Below are positions 3,390-33,441 of a stretch of DNA of 49,021 nucleotides, one piece after another. Below the pieces are notes generated by a model. It had not been told where the DNA came from and did no database searches. It worked only from the letters and a program-made list of their open reading frames with translations. Where the stretch lies: positions 1-49,021 of the forward strand of contig JAILRP010000004.1 in assembly GCA_024698075.1 (NCBI GenBank), written 5' to 3'. Source of the stretch: Lachnospiraceae bacterium (GTDB lineage: Bacteria; Bacillota; Clostridia; Lachnospirales; Lachnospiraceae). Position 1 is the stretch's first letter. Each line of letters opens with the position of its first letter. The position numbers and the translations under genes are program-made.

Positions 3390-4140
3390 ATATGAGCCTC
3401 AGCCCTTCAAGCGTCAGGTCACTGTTGTACTCGTCGATCATGTCGGTCTCGTTGCTGATGAGCCGCCCGAGGCCTCCCGTGGCAACGACTTTCAGGTCCT
3501 CATAACCCGTTTCCTTCTTCACCTGCCTGATGATGTACTCGGTCTGTCCTATCTGACCGTACATAAGTCCCGCCTGCATCGACCATATCGTGTCCGTTGC
3601 AAGTATCGACTTGGGCATTACTATTTCAATCTCCGGAAGCTTTGCGGTTCCGGTCCAAAGGGCCTGCGCGCTTATCCTCACTCCCGGTGCGGTGATCCCC
3701 GCCGCGAACCGTCCGTCGGCGGTAACAAGGTCATAGGTCGTAGCCGTTCCGAAATCGAGCACCAGGATGGGGCCGCCGTAGAGCTCATATGCCGCCACCG
3801 CATCAACTATCCTGTCCGGGCCTATCTCCTTCGGGTTCGGAGTATCGATGTTGATCCCCGTCTTCACTCCGGGAACAACCACGAGCGGGTTGATCCCAAG
3901 GTATTTCTTCACGCTTCCGACAAGCGAATGCATGACATCGGGAACGACCGACGCGATGCTGACGCCGTCTATGTCCTTAATGTCGACCCCCTGCCTTCCC
4001 GCAAGGTCGCATATGGTGCAGCCGAACTCATCGGAAGTCCTCGGCACCTTGCTCATTATCCTGAAAGTGTGCGTGAGTTTGTCCTTATCGTAAAGACCGC
4101 AAGTTATGTTGGTGTTTCCCACATCAAGTACCAGAAGCAT
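3373..4140 (-). CDS. coaX: Type III pantothenate kinase
   Basis: Catalyses the ATP-dependent phosphorylation of pantothenate, first step of coenzyme A synthesis, as the non-feedback-inhibited type III enzyme. The ASKHA-fold signature [17 protein letters not shown] opens the protein. [16 protein letters not shown] and [14 protein letters not shown] follow, then [10 protein letters not shown] near the end. The length of 255 residues is typical. AGGAGGGAAAA stands directly before the ATG. The gene overlaps dusB downstream by 17 bases and the upstream small gene by 17 bases, giving a tightly packed operon. Confidence 0.96.
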
Positions 4141-4465
4141 TTTTCCCTCCTATGATAAAAACACTGTAGAATTTCTCCAGGCTCTCAAACAGTTCTTCCC
4201 TGCGTTTCCTGACTTCCTTGACCAGAAGCCCTGCCCCTATCTCATCATACAGTATGTCCTCTTCGTCCGCATCGGTTATCAGCATGAGAGTTCCATCGCC
4301 GTCAAATCCGATCATGAACACCCCGCCGACCTCTTCGGTAAAGAGAACGCACATAATATGAAGCTCCTCTTTTATTGAATCGGGCAGTTTGCTGAATTTC
4401 TCGTTAAAATAATATTTCTGTTCGTATGCGTTCGCACCGCACAGTATCTCGGCAGCATTTTCCAT
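4124..4465 (-). CDS. Conserved hypothetical protein, probably the DUF6145 family
   Basis: A 113-residue soluble protein with a mixed alpha/beta pattern. Visible stretches are [20 protein letters not shown], then [20 protein letters not shown], then a charged helix ([18 protein letters not shown]). I recall this arrangement from Lachnospiraceae proteins labelled DUF6145, but I cannot confirm the family and no function is known to me. The open frame extends further upstream to 4570. The ATG at 4465 is preferred because it follows GGAGGGTACTG and overlaps the stop of the upstream gene by one base (TGATG). It overlaps coaX by 17 bases, so it is probably co-translated with it. Confidence 0.7.
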
Positions 4466-4764
4466 CAGTACCCTCCGACAACCGCATATATCCCGAACGC
4501 AGCCAGCGCGGCAAATGCGGCGGCAAGGACGGCAAATACCCATCCGTTCTTCGATCTTCTCCTGAAGCATTTATAGCTGTTCATTCCCAGCAAGGCGGCC
4601 GCGCACGCGAACATGATAGTATAGAGCACCATGGTGGCACCGGTCCGAAGCGATATGATCCCGCATATGATGATCACCGCCGAAAATAACATGTCCGCAA
4701 GGTTTACGAAAAAGAATTCCTTTTTTGCAAGTGTTTTCAGATAGTCTATTATCTCAGTGTTCAT
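4465..4764 (-). CDS. Small three-helix membrane protein, unknown function
   Basis: A 99-residue protein with three likely membrane spans: about residues 19-41 (NLADMLFSAVIIICGII), 44-63 (TMVLYTIMFACAAALLG) and 77-97 (VFAVLAAAFAALAAFGIYAV). A basic loop, KCFRRRSKNG, lies between spans two and three. No motif suggests a function. It sits four bases after argF and its stop overlaps the next start, so it belongs to the same transcript. I cannot assign a family with confidence. Confidence 0.65.
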   Translation of the reverse strand: MNTEIIDYLKTLAKKEFFFVNLADMLFSAVIIICGIISLRTGATMVLYTIMFACAAALLGMNSYKCFRRRSKNGWVFAVLAAAFAALAAFGIYAVVGGY

Positions 4765-4768
4765 GTTC

Positions 4769-5755
4769 CTATCCCAGCGTGGCTGCCATGACAGCCTTTA
4801 TCGTGTGCATCCTGTTCTCTGCCTCGTCAAAAACGACGTCTGCATATTTCTGGAATACCTCGTCGGTAACTTCCATGTCCGCGATCCCGAACCTCTCGCC
4901 CATCTCGCGTCCGATCGCGGTGTTGCGGTCATGGAACGCCGGCAGGCAGTGAAGGAATATCGCACCGGGCTTTGCATGGTTCATAAGGTCCATGGTGACC
5001 TTGTAGGGGCTGAGCTCCCTTATGCGCTCCTCCCAAACTTCATCGGGCTCTCCCATTGAAACCCATACGTCCGTGTAGACGATGTCGGCACCCTCGACGG
5101 CCTTGTAAGGGTCTTCCTCGAATGAGAGCGTTGCGCCCGAGATCTTTGCAAACTCCTCGCATTCCTTTATGAGCTTTGAGTTAGGGAAGTATTTCCTCGT
5201 CGTTCCGGCAACGAAATGCATCCCCATCTTGGCGCATGTGATCATGAGGGAATTGCCCATGTTGTAGCGAGCATCGCCCATGTACACGAGCTTCCTGCCC
5301 TCTATAGTTCCGAGGTGCTCCCTTATCGTCAGAAGGTCCGCGAGCATCTGCGTGGGATGGTATTCGTTCGTCAGGCCGTTCCATACCGGAACATCCGCAT
5401 ACTTTGCTATCTCCTCGACGATCGACTGGTCAAATCCGCGGTACTCGATGCCGTCATACATCCGTCCGAGAACGCATGCCGTGTCGGCAATGCTCTCCTT
5501 CTTTCCTATCTGTGACGCCCTCGGGTCAAGGAACGTTGTGCCTATCCCCATGTCGTGGGCCGCAACCTCGAATGAGCACCTGGTCCTCGTGCTTGTCTTC
5601 TCAAATATCAGGGCCACGTTCCTGCCCGGATACTGCCGGTCGAATATGCCCTTCTTCTTTTTTTCCTTAAGCTCCGCCGCAAGGTCGAGGAACTCCTCGA
5701 TCTCTTCCTTCGTAAAATCCTTAAGCGTTAAAAAATCACGTCCCTTTAAGCTCAT
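4769..5755 (-). CDS. argF: Ornithine carbamoyltransferase
   Basis: Transfers the carbamoyl group from carbamoyl phosphate to ornithine to give citrulline. The carbamoyl-phosphate site STRTRCSFE is present around residue 55, the ornithine-site loop appears as DVWVSMGE, and the catalytic-cysteine signature FLHCLPAFHD lies around residue 269. The length of 328 fits the family. AAGGAAACTGAAG precedes the ATG. There are no other arginine genes nearby, so whether it acts anabolically or in arginine breakdown (as arcB) cannot be told from context. Confidence 0.95.
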   Translation of the reverse strand: MSLKGRDFLTLKDFTKEEIEEFLDLAAELKEKKKKGIFDRQYPGRNVALIFEKTSTRTRCSFEVAAHDMGIGTTFLDPRASQIGKKESIADTACVLGRMYDGIEYRGFDQSIVEEIAKYADVPVWNGLTNEYHPTQMLADLLTIREHLGTIEGRKLVYMGDARYNMGNSLMITCAKMGMHFVAGTTRKYFPNSKLIKECEEFAKISGATLSFEEDPYKAVEGADIVYTDVWVSMGEPDEVWEERIRELSPYKVTMDLMNHAKPGAIFLHCLPAFHDRNTAIGREMGERFGIADMEVTDEVFQKYADVVFDEAENRMHTIKAVMAATLG

Positions 5756-7149: not shown

Positions 7150-8261
7150 TCTGCCCGGCCCTCCCTCAGCGAGAGGATCATGCCGCATATCCTGTCAACG
7201 TCATCCGTTGTAAGAGATGCACTCATAGGAAGCGTCAACACCCTCTCGGATACATAGTCAGCGACCGGGGTATGCCATGCCGCGAACCTGTCGCCGTAGC
7301 ACTGCATGCGGCTTGTAAGCGGATAAAAATACTTTCTCACATAAATGTCGTTTTCCTTGAGCTTATCCGCGACGTCCTGCCGGGATGATCCGAATTCCTT
7401 CTCATCGATGACCACCGGGAAATATGCGTAGTTCTCCCTGACACCGTCCTGCTTCGGAAGTATCTGAAGCCCTCTGATGCTACCAAGGTGCTGCCTGTAG
7501 CGTTCAGAAACAAGGCGCCTCTTCCCTATCTCCTCATCCACATGGCGGAGATTGCACAGGCCCATTGCCGCGCAGAATTCGTTCATCTTCGCGTTGGCGC
7601 CGATTCCGTCAACCGTCTCTTCGTCCTTTATCCCGAAGTCCTTGAGCTTCCGGAGGCTGTCGATAAGCCCCGCGTCGTCCGTCGTCACGGCACCGCCTTC
7701 TATGGTGTTATATACTTTCGTAGCATGGAAGCTGAACATCGACGCGTCGCCGAAAGTCCCGATCCCCCTGCCTTTATATTCCACGCCGAAAGCATGGGCG
7801 CTGTCGTATATGACTTTCAGGCCGTGCCTTTTTGCAATGCGCTCTATCTCCTCGACGTCGCAGACGCAGCCATACACATGGACAGGCACTATCGCGCATG
7901 TCCTGTCCGTGATAAGTTCTTCTATCTTTGAAGCGTCCATCGTGAACTTTTCCCTGTCTATGTCGCAGAAGACTGGCTCGAGCCCGTTCCTGACTATGGC
8001 ATGGGTCGTCGACGCGAAGGTGAACGGAGTCGTTATGACCTCGCCCGAAAGCTCCATTGCCTGGAGCGTCATCTCAAGCGCCATGTGCCCGTTCACGAAG
8101 AGCGATACGTTCGGCACCTTCAGATACTCTCCAAGGCGCTTTGCCAGCTCCTCATGATACGGTCCCATGTTCGTAAGCCATGCGCTTTCCCACAGCGGCC
8201 TTATCGCCTCGGCATATTCCTCAAAAGAGGGCATTGATGATCTTGTTACGTTTATCCTCAT
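7146..8261 (-). CDS. DegT/DnrJ/EryC1/StrS-family sugar aminotransferase
   Basis: A PLP-dependent aminotransferase expected to aminate a keto-sugar nucleotide. The PLP lysine is K182 in SFHATKVYNTIEGGAV. The upstream IYDSAHAFGVEY and the early VSLFVNGHMALEMTL are typical of the family, and the length of 371 is normal. Which amino sugar it makes cannot be read from the sequence; similar enzymes make 3- or 4-amino-dideoxy sugars. It is translationally coupled to the fucosyltransferase by a four-base overlap, and its place in a glycan cluster supports a role in making an unusual amino sugar for that glycan. Confidence 0.92.
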   Translation of the reverse strand: MRINVTRSSMPSFEEYAEAIRPLWESAWLTNMGPYHEELAKRLGEYLKVPNVSLFVNGHMALEMTLQAMELSGEVITTPFTFASTTHAIVRNGLEPVFCDIDREKFTMDASKIEELITDRTCAIVPVHVYGCVCDVEEIERIAKRHGLKVIYDSAHAFGVEYKGRGIGTFGDASMFSFHATKVYNTIEGGAVTTDDAGLIDSLRKLKDFGIKDEETVDGIGANAKMNEFCAAMGLCNLRHVDEEIGKRRLVSERYRQHLGSIRGLQILPKQDGVRENYAYFPVVIDEKEFGSSRQDVADKLKENDIYVRKYFYPLTSRMQCYGDRFAAWHTPVADYVSERVLTLPMSASLTTDDVDRICGMILSLREGRAD

Positions 8262-29928: not shown

Positions 29929-30011
29929 CGGTGTTTTATGTTACAATATAAGGCAAATGTTCAGGACTGCATCCTTTTATCCGCGAGGTGCGGAAGAAAC
30001 GGAGGACCATT

Positions 30012-31658
30012 GTGAGAAGATCGGAATCATTTGATTTATGCGAACAGTCTGTTGGCGCAGCTGCCGGATTTGTTGAGACCTGCCTTAAAGAGTTCGGGAT
30101 AAACTCTTCTGACAGCATGAAGAGCACGCTCATTGCCGAGGAAGCCTTGGGAAGCCTTGTCGCACATGCATCATCCTCCGGACAGCTGCGTGTCAGCGTC
30201 TACAGGTTTTTCGGAAACATCACGGTCGAGATGTCTGCACCCGGAAGCGAATACCCGCTCCTCGACAACATGCAGTCCGCTGCGATCCCCGATGATGACG
30301 AGATGGGGCGGGACGCTCTTGACGTTATAAGGAACATAATGCTGCGTTCCTTTGCCGATGACCTGAAATACAGGCATAAAGACGGGTACAACAGCATCCG
30401 GATGACTCTCTTAAAGTCAAAACGCTCCTTCCTCTATGCGACTCTTGCAGCCCTTGCAGCTGCCATCGTCATTGGCCTTATCATGTCCGCAGCAGCACCT
30501 GAGGCGGTCAACAAAGGCATCGACTACTACTTCCTGTCTCCTGTAAAGACGATATACATAAACCTTCTGAAAGTCATTGTCGCCCCGGTCGTTTTCTTTT
30601 CCATTGTTTCATGCATAGGCGGATTTTCAAACCTGCGTGAACTCGGAAAAGTCGGAGCGAAGACGATCCTTCTGTATACACTGACCACGCTCATCGCCGT
30701 GTCGGTCGGCATCGGCGTATTTTACCTGTTCCAGCCCGGGAAGGCGGGACTTGCTGCGGGGACGGTGGAAGGAGCTGCAGGAAACGCGGCGGCCAGCCTG
30801 TCCCTCAGGGATCTTTTAGTCGGGCTCGCACCCTCCAATTTTGTGAGTCCCTTCCTTAACGACAACATGCCGCAGCTCATAATACTTGCCGTCCTTTGCG
30901 GTATCGCCGCAGGTCTCATCGGGCAGTATTCCGTTGTGCTCCGTTCACTGTTTGATGCGTGCAATGAGCTTTTCATGAAGATTGCTTCAATGATCATTAA
31001 GTTCATGCCTCTTGCCATATTCTGCTCCGCAGCCTCGATGATAATCTCGACCGGAGCCGAAACACTCCTGTCCATCGCGGGAATGTTCGGATCGTTCATT
31101 TTCGGCCTGATGTGCATGATGATCATTTACATCATTCTCGTGGCCGTGCTCGGAAGGCTTGACCCGCGCCCCCTCATCCGCAAATACGCACCTACTATGC
31201 TTCAGGTGTTTTCTATGGCATCAAGCAATGCCGCCATCCCCATCAACATGTCCGCATGCAATAAGAAGCTCGGAATAAGCAACAAGATATGCGGCCTGTC
31301 GATCCCTCTCGGATCCACGCTCAACATGGACGGTACGTGCGTTCAGCTCGCGGTCTTCGCGCTCGCATTGGCAAAAGTATACGGCACGCCCGTTTACAGC
31401 AGCGGCCTTATCACCATGGCAGTAACCATAGTCATCCTGTCTATGGGTGCACCCGGAATGCCGGGAGGAACCGTCATATGCCTGTCCGTTCTTTTGGAGC
31501 AGCTCGGCGTTCCCACGGAAGCGGTCGGCCTTGTAATGGGAATAGGGCCTCTTCTCGGAATGTTCCTGTGCATGAGCAACTGTGTCGGCGATGTAGTTGT
31601 CACCTCGATCGTTGCCCGCTCCGCAGGCGAGATCGACATGGATGTCTACAGGAAGTGA
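30012..31658 (+). CDS. DAACS-type (dicarboxylate/amino acid:cation) symporter with N-terminal RsbW-like ATPase-fold domain
   Basis: A two-part protein of about 548 residues. Residues 1-135 resemble the GHKL ATPase of anti-sigma factors such as RsbW/SpoIIAB: ESFDLCEQSVGAAAGFVETC, then the N-box region AEEALGSLVAHA (E44 kept, the Mg-binding Asn replaced by S48). The DxG box region reads SAPGSEYPL, so nucleotide binding is doubtful. Residues 138-548 are a sodium/dicarboxylate or glutamate symporter with SSNAAIP, PLGSTLNMDGT and NCVGDVVVTSIVA, so the cation- and substrate-site motifs look intact. The GTG at 30012 is chosen because GGAGG stands six bases before it; the open frame begins at 29988. 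It is followed after seven bases by the MATE fusion gene. Confidence 0.87.
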   Translation: MRRSESFDLCEQSVGAAAGFVETCLKEFGINSSDSMKSTLIAEEALGSLVAHASSSGQLRVSVYRFFGNITVEMSAPGSEYPLLDNMQSAAIPDDDEMGRDALDVIRNIMLRSFADDLKYRHKDGYNSIRMTLLKSKRSFLYATLAALAAAIVIGLIMSAAAPEAVNKGIDYYFLSPVKTIYINLLKVIVAPVVFFSIVSCIGGFSNLRELGKVGAKTILLYTLTTLIAVSVGIGVFYLFQPGKAGLAAGTVEGAAGNAAASLSLRDLLVGLAPSNFVSPFLNDNMPQLIILAVLCGIAAGLIGQYSVVLRSLFDACNELFMKIASMIIKFMPLAIFCSAASMIISTGAETLLSIAGMFGSFIFGLMCMMIIYIILVAVLGRLDPRPLIRKYAPTMLQVFSMASSNAAIPINMSACNKKLGISNKICGLSIPLGSTLNMDGTCVQLAVFALALAKVYGTPVYSSGLITMAVTIVILSMGAPGMPGGTVICLSVLLEQLGVPTEAVGLVMGIGPLLGMFLCMSNCVGDVVVTSIVARSAGEIDMDVYRK

Positions 31659-31665
31659 GGCCGGC

Positions 31666-33441
31666 TTGAAAGATTCAAAAAACGACGCGTTAGTCGGATC
31701 GCTGATCTGGAAGACCCTAATCCCTCAGTTTACGACTGAACTGAGTCTTTCCATGACAACAATCATAGACGGCATCATCGTAGGGTTCTTCTACGGTTCG
31801 AAGGGCCTCGCCGCGGTCGGGCTCGGAATGCCCATACTGTCGGTTTTCTCGATAGTCGCAGGCGTACTCGGCACCGGTAATTCAGTTATCTGTTCGTCCT
31901 TTATCGGAAAAGCGTCAAGGGATAAAACTAACCGTGTCTTTACGCTCGCACTCATCTGGTCCCTGTCGCTTGCCGTCATTCTGACTGTTTCATGCATAGG
32001 CTGTTCGGAACAGATAGCCGTGCTCTTCTGCGGAAAAAAAGATGTAAGCCTCATTCCCGATGTCACGCAGTATGTTCGGGGATTTTCGCTCGGAGCGGGA
32101 TTCATAATACTGCGCCAGCTGCTCGCCCCTCTTGTATGCATGGAAGGCGGCAACCGCTATGTCCATGTGTCATCTGCTGCGATACTCATATCCGATCTTG
32201 CGGCGGACTACATTTCATCGGCATACTTAAACGGCGGGATGTTCGGGATCGGTGCCGCGAGCGCGCTGTCCTACGTGTTCGGATGCATGACTCTCGTGGT
32301 CTACTGCCTCACAAAGAACTGTACTTTAAGGCTGGAGATGGCGCACTGCCTGAGCCTTAAGACAAGCCTTGCGATACTGCGCGAAGGGATACCGACGGCT
32401 CTGAAGCGTTTCTGCGATCTTGTCACCCCTGTCCTCACTAACAGGTTCATCCTCTCCATTGCTTCGGTAAGCGCAATGGCTGCGATGTCCGTGCAGAATT
32501 CCTCGACCAGGTTCCTGCTGTGCCTTGTGCTGTCCCTTTCAACGATGGTGCTCCTCCTTACCGGCATGTTCTACAGCGAATCTGACCGCAATGAGATGGA
32601 AGATGCGTTCCGTAAGATGCTGATGCATACACTGGTCTGGAGCATCGGCGTATCGGCTGTTTTCTTTATATTCGCAAAGCCCATCGCGGGCTATTATATA
32701 CATGATGACCCTGTTTCGGCCGCTATGTCGGCAACCGCGATCAGATGGTTCGTGGTAGGGATTCCGGGCCTTGCGCTCAACCAGTGCGCTGCATTCTATC
32801 TTCAGGCCATAGGAAAGCTCAGGATCTCAAATGCGATAATGATCGCCGACAGGCTCGTAACTACCGTAAGCCTCGTTTATCTTCTCGGATGGCTGTACGG
32901 CGAGACCGGTATATTTGCGGCATACGGACTCAGCGAGATACTTCTCGCCGTCATACTTTACATACTTCTGTGCATCAAAAACCGCGGCCTTGTGACCTCA
33001 GTGCGGCAGATGCTCATGCTGCCCGATGACTACGGCATCCCCGAAGAAGACCGCTTCAGCTGTACCATAACAACAAAAGAAGATGCCATGGGCATCTCCG
33101 AAGCGGTCCATTCATTCTGCATCGAAAAGGGGATTGACAAAAGACGCGCATTTTTTGCGGCTCTTTGTACCGAGGAGCTGGCAGTGAACGTCGTGTCCTA
33201 CGGTTTTAAGAAAAAGAGGAGAAGGCTCAGCATACGAGTGTTCATCGGGCCTTCCGGCGGCATCACCATACGCCTCCGCGACAACGGAAAGCCGTTTGAC
33301 CTCATCACGCGCCAGCAGATGGCAGAAAAAAATGATGCCGATCCTTCAAAGAACATCGGCATCCGTACTGTATTCGGTATTGCTGAAAATGTCAGCTACA
33401 ACGCAGGTTACGGCATGAACAACACCGTCATAACCATCTGA
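31666..33441 (+). CDS. MATE-family exporter with C-terminal RsbW-like ATPase domain
   Basis: About 591 residues. Residues 1-445 form a MATE transporter of about twelve spans (FTTELSLSMTTIIDGIIVG at the start). The C-terminal 145 residues are an anti-sigma-factor-type GHKL ATPase with N-box TEELAVNVVSYGF (E504, N508), DxG box LRDNGKPFDL (D539-F544) and a final NIGIRTVFGIAENVSY segment, all looking functional. The start is taken as TTG at 31666, five bases after GAGG, just past the symporter stop; an ATG at 31642 inside the symporter gene is less likely. The fusion suggests a transporter that binds or phosphorylates a regulator, possibly a STAS-domain protein. That role is inference. Confidence 0.87.
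   Translation: MKDSKNDALVGSLIWKTLIPQFTTELSLSMTTIIDGIIVGFFYGSKGLAAVGLGMPILSVFSIVAGVLGTGNSVICSSFIGKASRDKTNRVFTLALIWSLSLAVILTVSCIGCSEQIAVLFCGKKDVSLIPDVTQYVRGFSLGAGFIILRQLLAPLVCMEGGNRYVHVSSAAILISDLAADYISSAYLNGGMFGIGAASALSYVFGCMTLVVYCLTKNCTLRLEMAHCLSLKTSLAILREGIPTALKRFCDLVTPVLTNRFILSIASVSAMAAMSVQNSSTRFLLCLVLSLSTMVLLLTGMFYSESDRNEMEDAFRKMLMHTLVWSIGVSAVFFIFAKPIAGYYIHDDPVSAAMSATAIRWFVVGIPGLALNQCAAFYLQAIGKLRISNAIMIADRLVTTVSLVYLLGWLYGETGIFAAYGLSEILLAVILYILLCIKNRGLVTSVRQMLMLPDDYGIPEEDRFSCTITTKEDAMGISEAVHSFCIEKGIDKRRAFFAALCTEELAVNVVSYGFKKKRRRLSIRVFIGPSGGITIRLRDNGKPFDLITRQQMAEKNDADPSKNIGIRTVFGIAENVSYNAGYGMNNTVITI

Follow-up and report, generated by a model that had tools for sequence, protein, structure and literature searches.

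Partner switching among RsbW/SpoIIAB-type kinases, STAS proteins of the RsbV/SpoIIAA type and SpoIIE/RsbU phosphatases is known mainly for freeing sigma factors. The SypE/SypA pair acts in biofilm control, and in SulP/SLC26 transporters one half of the RsbW–STAS pair, a STAS domain, forms the C-terminus. Described here are two adjacent genes in a 49,021-nucleotide stretch of DNA from a Lachnospiraceae bacterium (the window; GCA_024698075.1, JAILRP010000004.1, contig 82 in a genome assembly of 105 contigs and 2.49 Mb), encoding a DAACS-family symporter and a MATE-family exporter that are each fused to the other half of that pair, an RsbW-type domain of the GHKL group. The domain of the exporter looks kinase-competent, and that of the symporter has lost its nucleotide site.

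The SLC5/STAC histidine kinases CbrA, CrbS and RpuS likewise combine a secondary carrier with an ATPase domain of kinase type in a single polypeptide (PMC7096432, PMC13022988). In these, a two-component kinase is joined to an SLC5 carrier, whereas the domains described here are RsbW-type and the carriers DAACS and MATE; no Pfam match to an SLC5 carrier, a histidine kinase core or another kinase part was found in either protein. CapK/CapS, which controls transcription of immune operons (PMC13373217), and SypE/SypA (PMC10120452) are, in the excerpted accounts, pairs of a GHKL or serine kinase with a STAS protein that have been rewired to a new output, and those excerpts mention no transporter fusion for either. 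Compared with RsbW/SpoIIAB partner switching, the domain family and fold are the same and in relatives some of the fusions have partner genes next to them, but here the kinase-type domain is part of a transporter, the DAACS copy is catalytically stripped, and no sigma factor was seen among 30 selected neighbour proteins scanned, a scan that included no dedicated search for sigma factors. A full-text literature search aimed at DAACS-GHKL and MATE-GHKL fusions gave no report of them among the matches listed.

An initial annotation of the window, made from its letters alone, had proposed two transporters in tandem, seven bases apart, each with an anti-sigma-factor-type GHKL domain, and both open reading frames are confirmed. 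The DAACS gene has a GTG start at 30012 with GGAGG just 5' of it, and the MATE gene has a TTG start at 31666, seven bases past the DAACS stop. The features of the pair are as follows.

30012..31658, + strand: DAACS-family symporter with an N-terminal pseudo-GHKL domain, 548 amino acids (open reading frame, ribosome-binding site, SDF match with E = 1.1e-89).
30012..30425, + strand: RsbW/SpoIIAB-fold domain of the symporter without N-box Asn and G1 Asp, residues 1–138 (sub-cut-off Pfam match, AlphaFold2 (AF2) model with Foldseek, residue counts).
30138..30155, + strand: remnant N-box EEALGS, residues 43–48, with Glu-Glu retained and Asn replaced by Ser48 (residue alignment and counts).
30237..30245, + strand: remnant G1 box A-P-G, residues 76–78, in place of D-x-G (Ala76; residue alignment and counts).
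30426..31655, + strand: DAACS transport domain, residues 139–548, with NMDGT and N523/D527 retained (Pfam SDF, alignment).
31666..33441, + strand: MATE-family exporter with a C-terminal GHKL domain, 591 amino acids (open reading frame, Pfam, full-length AF2 model).
31666..33000, + strand: MATE transport domain, about residues 1–445 (Pfam, PDB sequence matches, AF2 model).
33028..33438, + strand: RsbW/SpoIIAB-type ATPase domain, about residues 455–591 (HATPase_c_2, 33.9 bits).
33172..33189, + strand: intact N-box EELAVN, residues 503–508 (E504 and N508 the same in all 23 MATE-GHKL proteins aligned).
33280..33288, + strand: intact G1 box D-N-G, residues 539–541 (D539 invariant in the 23 rows).
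33358..33360, + strand: G2-box Gly565 in NIGIRTV (invariant in the 23 aligned rows).

At the C-terminus of the MATE protein is a HATPase_c_2 domain (PF13581) that scores over the Pfam cut-off of 27.4 bits (positions 499–608, E = 3.5e-8, 33.9 bits); Pfam residue positions are counted throughout from scan frames beginning at 29988 for DAACS and 31597 for MATE. The carrier part matches MatE in Pfam (E = 3.2e-28) and, by sequence, MATE/MOP structures in the PDB, and the AF2 model of the full-length protein (predicted local distance difference test score, pLDDT, 84.0) has carrier helices followed by a C-terminal α/β domain. Residues E504, N508, D539, G565 and N585 are invariant across 23 aligned MATE fusions, an alignment that leaves out most degenerate members, and in a wider set of 41 unique proteins the N-box Asn is found in 31 and the G1 Asp in 35. 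Judged by these residues the MATE GHKL domain looks kinase-competent, unlike the DAACS copy without a nucleotide site.

Preceding the DAACS carrier is a domain whose match to HATPase_c_2 in Pfam is under the cut-off (21–140, E = 1.2e-4, 22.5 bits); a profile search of the genome gave it 25.9 bits, or 27.4 bits with in-frame neighbours. The best PDB match in a Foldseek search with its AF2 model (pLDDT 79.4, from an 11-row alignment) is UsfX (8ih8, E = 8.2e-8), followed by SpoIIAB and RsbW, and the domain as modelled is of the SpoIIAB/RsbW fold. None of the 43 unique DAACS fusions has the N-box Asn and the G1 Asp together (the Asn alone is found in 3); each Glu of the Glu-Glu pair is retained in 39, and the Asn of the C-terminal GxN in 40. 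We name the domain pseudo-GHKL. Comparison of the window with three relatives gave proportions of differing nonsynonymous and synonymous sites of 0.19–0.26 (pN) and 0.71–0.78 (pS), the synonymous sites being near saturation, and by this measure the domain is under purifying selection.

The GHKL domains that the initial annotation had assigned to the two termini are thus both upheld, that of MATE above the Pfam cut-off and that of DAACS by its fold, though its Pfam score is below; a search of domain architecture identifies the extra domains as GHKL, not as something unrelated to GHKL ATPases, and the motifs N508, D539-N-G, NMDGT and NCVGD are all present. The DAACS carrier itself is matched by SDF (PF00375) at 152–544 (E = 1.1e-89), and its motifs NMDGT and N-x-x-G-D are retained in the window. 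In an alignment with a solved aspartate transporter (9bgz), G512, G516 and L519 of the window protein correspond to D, D and R, last-helix positions that we take to coordinate acidic substrates in DAACS carriers, and with G, G and L in their place aspartate, glutamate and dicarboxylates are unlikely substrates.

DAACS-GHKL and MATE-GHKL each form a genuine family, and in the genomes searched both occur chiefly in Lachnospiraceae, the genome-set searches for DAACS-GHKL having covered that family only. With the DAACS protein as query, 11 full-length fusions were found in 8 of 150 family genomes; its N-terminal domain has matches in 45 of 397 family genomes, including free RsbW-sized proteins and MATE fusions. 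Of these 397 genomes, at least 51 have MATE fusions, a lower bound that counts matches extending to model position 533 or beyond, with three candidates at most scored per genome; outside the family, full-length MATE fusions are present in at least 5 of 398 genomes drawn from the phylum (families f26, f38 and f39). The window's own genome encodes a second DAACS-GHKL and two further MATE-GHKL proteins. Also encoded there, on contig 8 (L120:7374–7997), is a 207-residue protein comprising a short scrap of MATE and a full GHKL domain, which resembles the end of MATE-GHKL. At locus L046 (6403–7653) a plain DAACS gene begins six bases after a DAACS-GHKL gene.

Relatives of the DAACS fusion at 11 loci come from seven Lachnospiraceae metagenome-assembled genomes (MAGs; one aligning to part of the query only), three Spirochaetes MAGs (61% identity) and one Eubacterium MAG (40%), and several of the records are of rumen or abomasum origin. 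The Spirochaetes proteins (L237, L239 and L240, two of them near-identical) sit inside Lachnospiraceae sequences in the tree, a placement that reflects either lateral transfer or mis-binning of the MAGs. Forming one clade in the DAACS tree are 24 of the 25 'plain' rows; the exception, L190, matches GHKL weakly and is likely to be a fusion that has diverged. The tree, which has several long branches, is consistent with a single origin of DAACS-GHKL, a point of which we are unsure.

A survey of genomes bears out the association of the two fusions. MATE-GHKL is present in 13 of the 17 genomes with strong DAACS-GHKL (E below 1e-15 in the domain search) against 38 of the 380 others, and in 19 of 26 against 32 of 371 when nine genomes with weaker, more divergent DAACS fusions are added, in both cases among related genomes, so that p values overstate the significance. 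The fused pair as a unit is conserved in some relatives (L157/L238, L040/L235, L241 and, as a remnant, L236), and its pairing recurs patchily. The gene order of the window is kept in L157/L238, where MATE is 64% identical (the L157 DAACS gene was found by a six-frame scan and is overlapped by a longer reverse-strand frame). In L040/L235, MATE-GHKL lies upstream of DAACS, on the opposite side from that in the window, and is just 25% identical, so this DAACS is paired with a different MATE paralog. L241 contains STAS-APH, STAS, DAACS-GHKL, SpoIIE (on the opposite strand) and MATE-GHKL within about 7 kb. Past DAACS-GHKL in L236 is a MATE-GHKL remnant (7625–8200) decayed by internal deletions, next to a DAACS frame that is still open; its two pieces are 50 and 48% identical to the window MATE and 27–29% to the L040 MATE. 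Counting the window, MATE-GHKL or a remnant lies near 5 of the 43 unique DAACS-GHKL proteins, and within the 10-row clade around the window in the tree, from which L235 and L238 were left out as duplicates of L040 and L157, near four (the window, L157, L040 and L236).

Of the 41 MATE-GHKL fusions, 13 have a gene for a STAS, SpoIIE or RsbW protein no more than 5 kb away, against none of 24 plain MATE genes in control loci (Fisher p = 0.0012), the fusion loci having been gathered by several routes, so that fusions and controls were not drawn as matched random samples. Leaving out the doubtful L106 gives 12/41 against 0/24 (p = 0.0024), and counting the two L093 fusions once as well gives p = 0.0046. 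With duplicates left out, counting SpoIIE neighbours by the phosphatase domain only lowered the number of linked MATE fusions from 14 of 41 to 13 and that of linked DAACS fusions from 5 of 43 to 4. The controls comprised 40 loci, from which 24 of 35 plain MATE and 21 of 26 plain DAACS genes entered the tests; plain MATE genes of L171 and L183 were kept out, as these loci had been taken for their RsbW matches. Two neighbours were set aside: the STAS neighbour in L106, a 24-residue match in a 64-residue frame, is probably a chance one, and the SpoIIE-like neighbour in L184, cut by the contig end, dropped out on the phosphatase-domain recount.

Among the clearest cases are L093, L111 and L112, where STAS, MATE-GHKL, SpoIIE and RsbW genes are all in one locus; L114 has MATE-GHKL, SpoIIE and RsbW, and in L110 two STAS proteins are encoded past MATE-GHKL, of which the one scanned is STAS-APH. 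Among DAACS fusions, consecutive genes in L168 encode SpoIIE-RsbW, DAACS-GHKL and STAS-APH, separated by 3 and 27 bases, and in L163 a STAS gene is upstream of DAACS-GHKL. Two genes upstream of MATE-GHKL in L098 is a Sulfate_transp-STAS gene. MATE fusions that have lost the Asn or the Asp are concentrated beside partner-switch genes (7/13, against 3/28 elsewhere, p = 0.0055; 7/12 against 3/29 without L106, p = 0.0028). Loss of the kinase residues with retention of the domain near partner-switch genes is as expected of a docking site.

The initial annotation, seeing no STAS or PP2C gene next door, had placed the partner elsewhere in the genome, and this agrees with what the other contigs hold: SpoIIE genes on contigs 15, 98 and 101 (with a weak fourth match on 13), STAS genes on contigs 15, 98 (two) and 101, and RsbW genes on contigs 15 and 98. 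The contig-101 cassette (L123:4768–7596) encodes a SpoIIE protein of 544 amino acids and a STAS-APH protein of 388 amino acids, and none of the nine HATPase_c_2 matches in this genome is a kinase near it. STAS-APH, which combines a STAS domain with a small-molecule phosphotransferase fold, is encoded in several genomes and lies near transporter fusions in L103, L110, L168 and L241, which makes the contig-101 cassette the first candidate for a partner.

In the reading that we prefer, in which our belief and our doubt are evenly balanced, RsbW-like domains dock STAS proteins on transporters and so wire partner switching directly to transport. We infer STAS binding, phosphorylation and transport gating by the fusions, and favour the direction from switch to transporter over that from flux to switch. 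The domains of both transporters would be docking sites for STAS proteins of the RsbV/SpoIIAA type; the MATE domain, its ATP site kept, would bind such a protein and phosphorylate it on serine, and the DAACS domain, its ATP site lost, would bind it without phosphorylating. SpoIIE-type phosphatases from elsewhere in the genome would reset the STAS protein, whose binding and release would shift the activities of importer and exporter together. A more specific form, which we put forward tentatively and believe somewhat less than we doubt, is that these are 'partner-switched transporters': two unrelated carrier folds would each have gained RsbW-type domains, a pair of competent kinase and pseudokinase would receive the STAS protein, and importer and exporter would be gated reciprocally by serine phosphorylation with no transcription step. 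Transporters that bear the kinase-type half, intact in some and kinase-dead in others, and partly next to STAS and SpoIIE genes, would bring membrane transport in Lachnospiraceae of rumen and gut directly under partner switching and point to targets of some of the SpoIIE/STAS cassettes there; the STAS-docking reading is testable with purified domains.

Several observations weigh against STAS docking on these transporters. The window pair has no STAS, SpoIIE or RsbW gene within 5 kb, and the same holds for 28 of the 41 MATE and 39 of the 43 DAACS fusions. Linkage of DAACS-GHKL to partner-switch genes is not significant (4/43 within 5 kb, against 0/21 plain DAACS, p = 0.29); in one of the four cases, L234, the partner gene is about 1 kb off and on the other strand, and the L168 N-terminal domain is recognized by our own profile only (residues 7–91), Pfam giving SDF alone. 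The supposed SpoIIE neighbour in L237 proved to be an HD-domain protein whose sensor part had been matched by the full-length SpoIIE query. Plain MATE genes also occur near partner-switch genes, in 2 of 35 cases (L171 and L183, both RsbW-match loci) and in L122 of the window's own genome. In the clade around the window, six DAACS genes have no MATE-GHKL nearby (L232, L233, L234, L237, L239 and L240), the sequenced stretches of L232 and L240 ending 540 and about 700 bases downstream of the DAACS gene; and a genome of the same genus (G193) has MATE-GHKL and no DAACS-GHKL match.

The initial annotation had read the pair as a transport-coupled partner-switching system. Genomic linkage supports that coupling, significantly for MATE fusions only, with STAS and SpoIIE genes beside a minority of fusions in relatives and none beside the window pair; the two domains are not equivalent, however, the nucleotide site being lost from the DAACS copy. 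In the direction proposed there the proteins would be transceptors: substrate flux or membrane state would alter the GHKL domain, and through it STAS phosphorylation and the output of the switch, as in the SLC5–histidine kinase CbrA. The same linkage applies to this explanation, the MATE domain retains its kinase site, the replacement of D, D and R by G, G and L in the window's DAACS would suit a sensor derived from a transporter, or a carrier whose specificity has changed, and signalling transporter–kinase fusions are known, such as CbrA (PMC7096432, PMC13022988). On an indirect argument we nevertheless regard it as rather unlikely, since the Asn/Asp pair is missing from the DAACS domain in 43 of 43 fusions and kinase-degenerate MATE fusions are enriched beside partner-switch genes, where a degenerate kinase suits a receiver better than an emitter.

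That two independently useful transporters, each with a generic regulatory or oligomerization domain, happen to be neighbours and share no function is a distinctly unlikely explanation. It would account for the presence of MATE-GHKL or a remnant near just 5 of the 43 DAACS-GHKL proteins and its absence near 6 of the 9 nearest tree relatives; yet the same-order pair recurs, a pair recurs again with a different MATE paralog, and the families co-occur across genomes (13/17 against 38/380, with the relatedness of the genomes inflating significance). A classical anti-sigma arrangement, with the MATE-tethered domain holding a sigma factor at the membrane until a STAS partner releases it, has in its favour that, among solved structures, anti-sigma factors come closest to the DAACS domain in fold and that the MATE domain scores over the HATPase_c_2 cut-off. 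We hold it to be very improbable; no sigma-factor family appeared in the scan of 30 selected neighbour proteins, which was not aimed at sigma factors.

The pair lies between an upstream gene for an acyl-ACP thioesterase and a downstream one for a YgjP-type metallopeptidase; both are on the opposite strand, so DAACS and MATE appear to form a separate unit. A scan of the locus for promoters and terminators found sites about as frequent as in shuffled sequence.

Other genes are found beside MATE-GHKL in relatives and in the window's own genome. Proteins with an HD-CE domain directly adjoin it in three loci, one of them from the window's own genome (L051:4687–5565, L090:7096–7962 and L101:6728–7651), and in L103 (4512–7166, − strand) HD-CE is fused on to give MATE-GHKL-HDCE (HD-CE at residues 601–884, E = 1e-107), suggesting that HD-CE and MATE-GHKL act together. 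Directly adjoining MATE-GHKL in L091 (3353–11811), L108 (3132–5084) and L109 (59–5179) are non-ribosomal peptide synthetase (NRPS)-like, reductase-terminated or LuxC-type enzymes, and an enzyme of this group lies directly beside a long MATE gene in L115 (6866–9460). In L050 of the window's own genome, a gene for a CHASE2-adenylate/guanylate cyclase (3410–5215) and the end of a MATE-GHKL paralog share four bases. Enzymes of the GH3 type (the auxin-amidosynthetase family) are encoded near MATE-GHKL in L093 (4124–5866), L101 (2920–4680), L111 (3612–5213), L113 (3264–4970) and L188 (120–1913), accompanied in L093, L101 and L111 by STAS and SpoIIE genes, hinting that the exporters near these enzymes handle an amide-linked small molecule.

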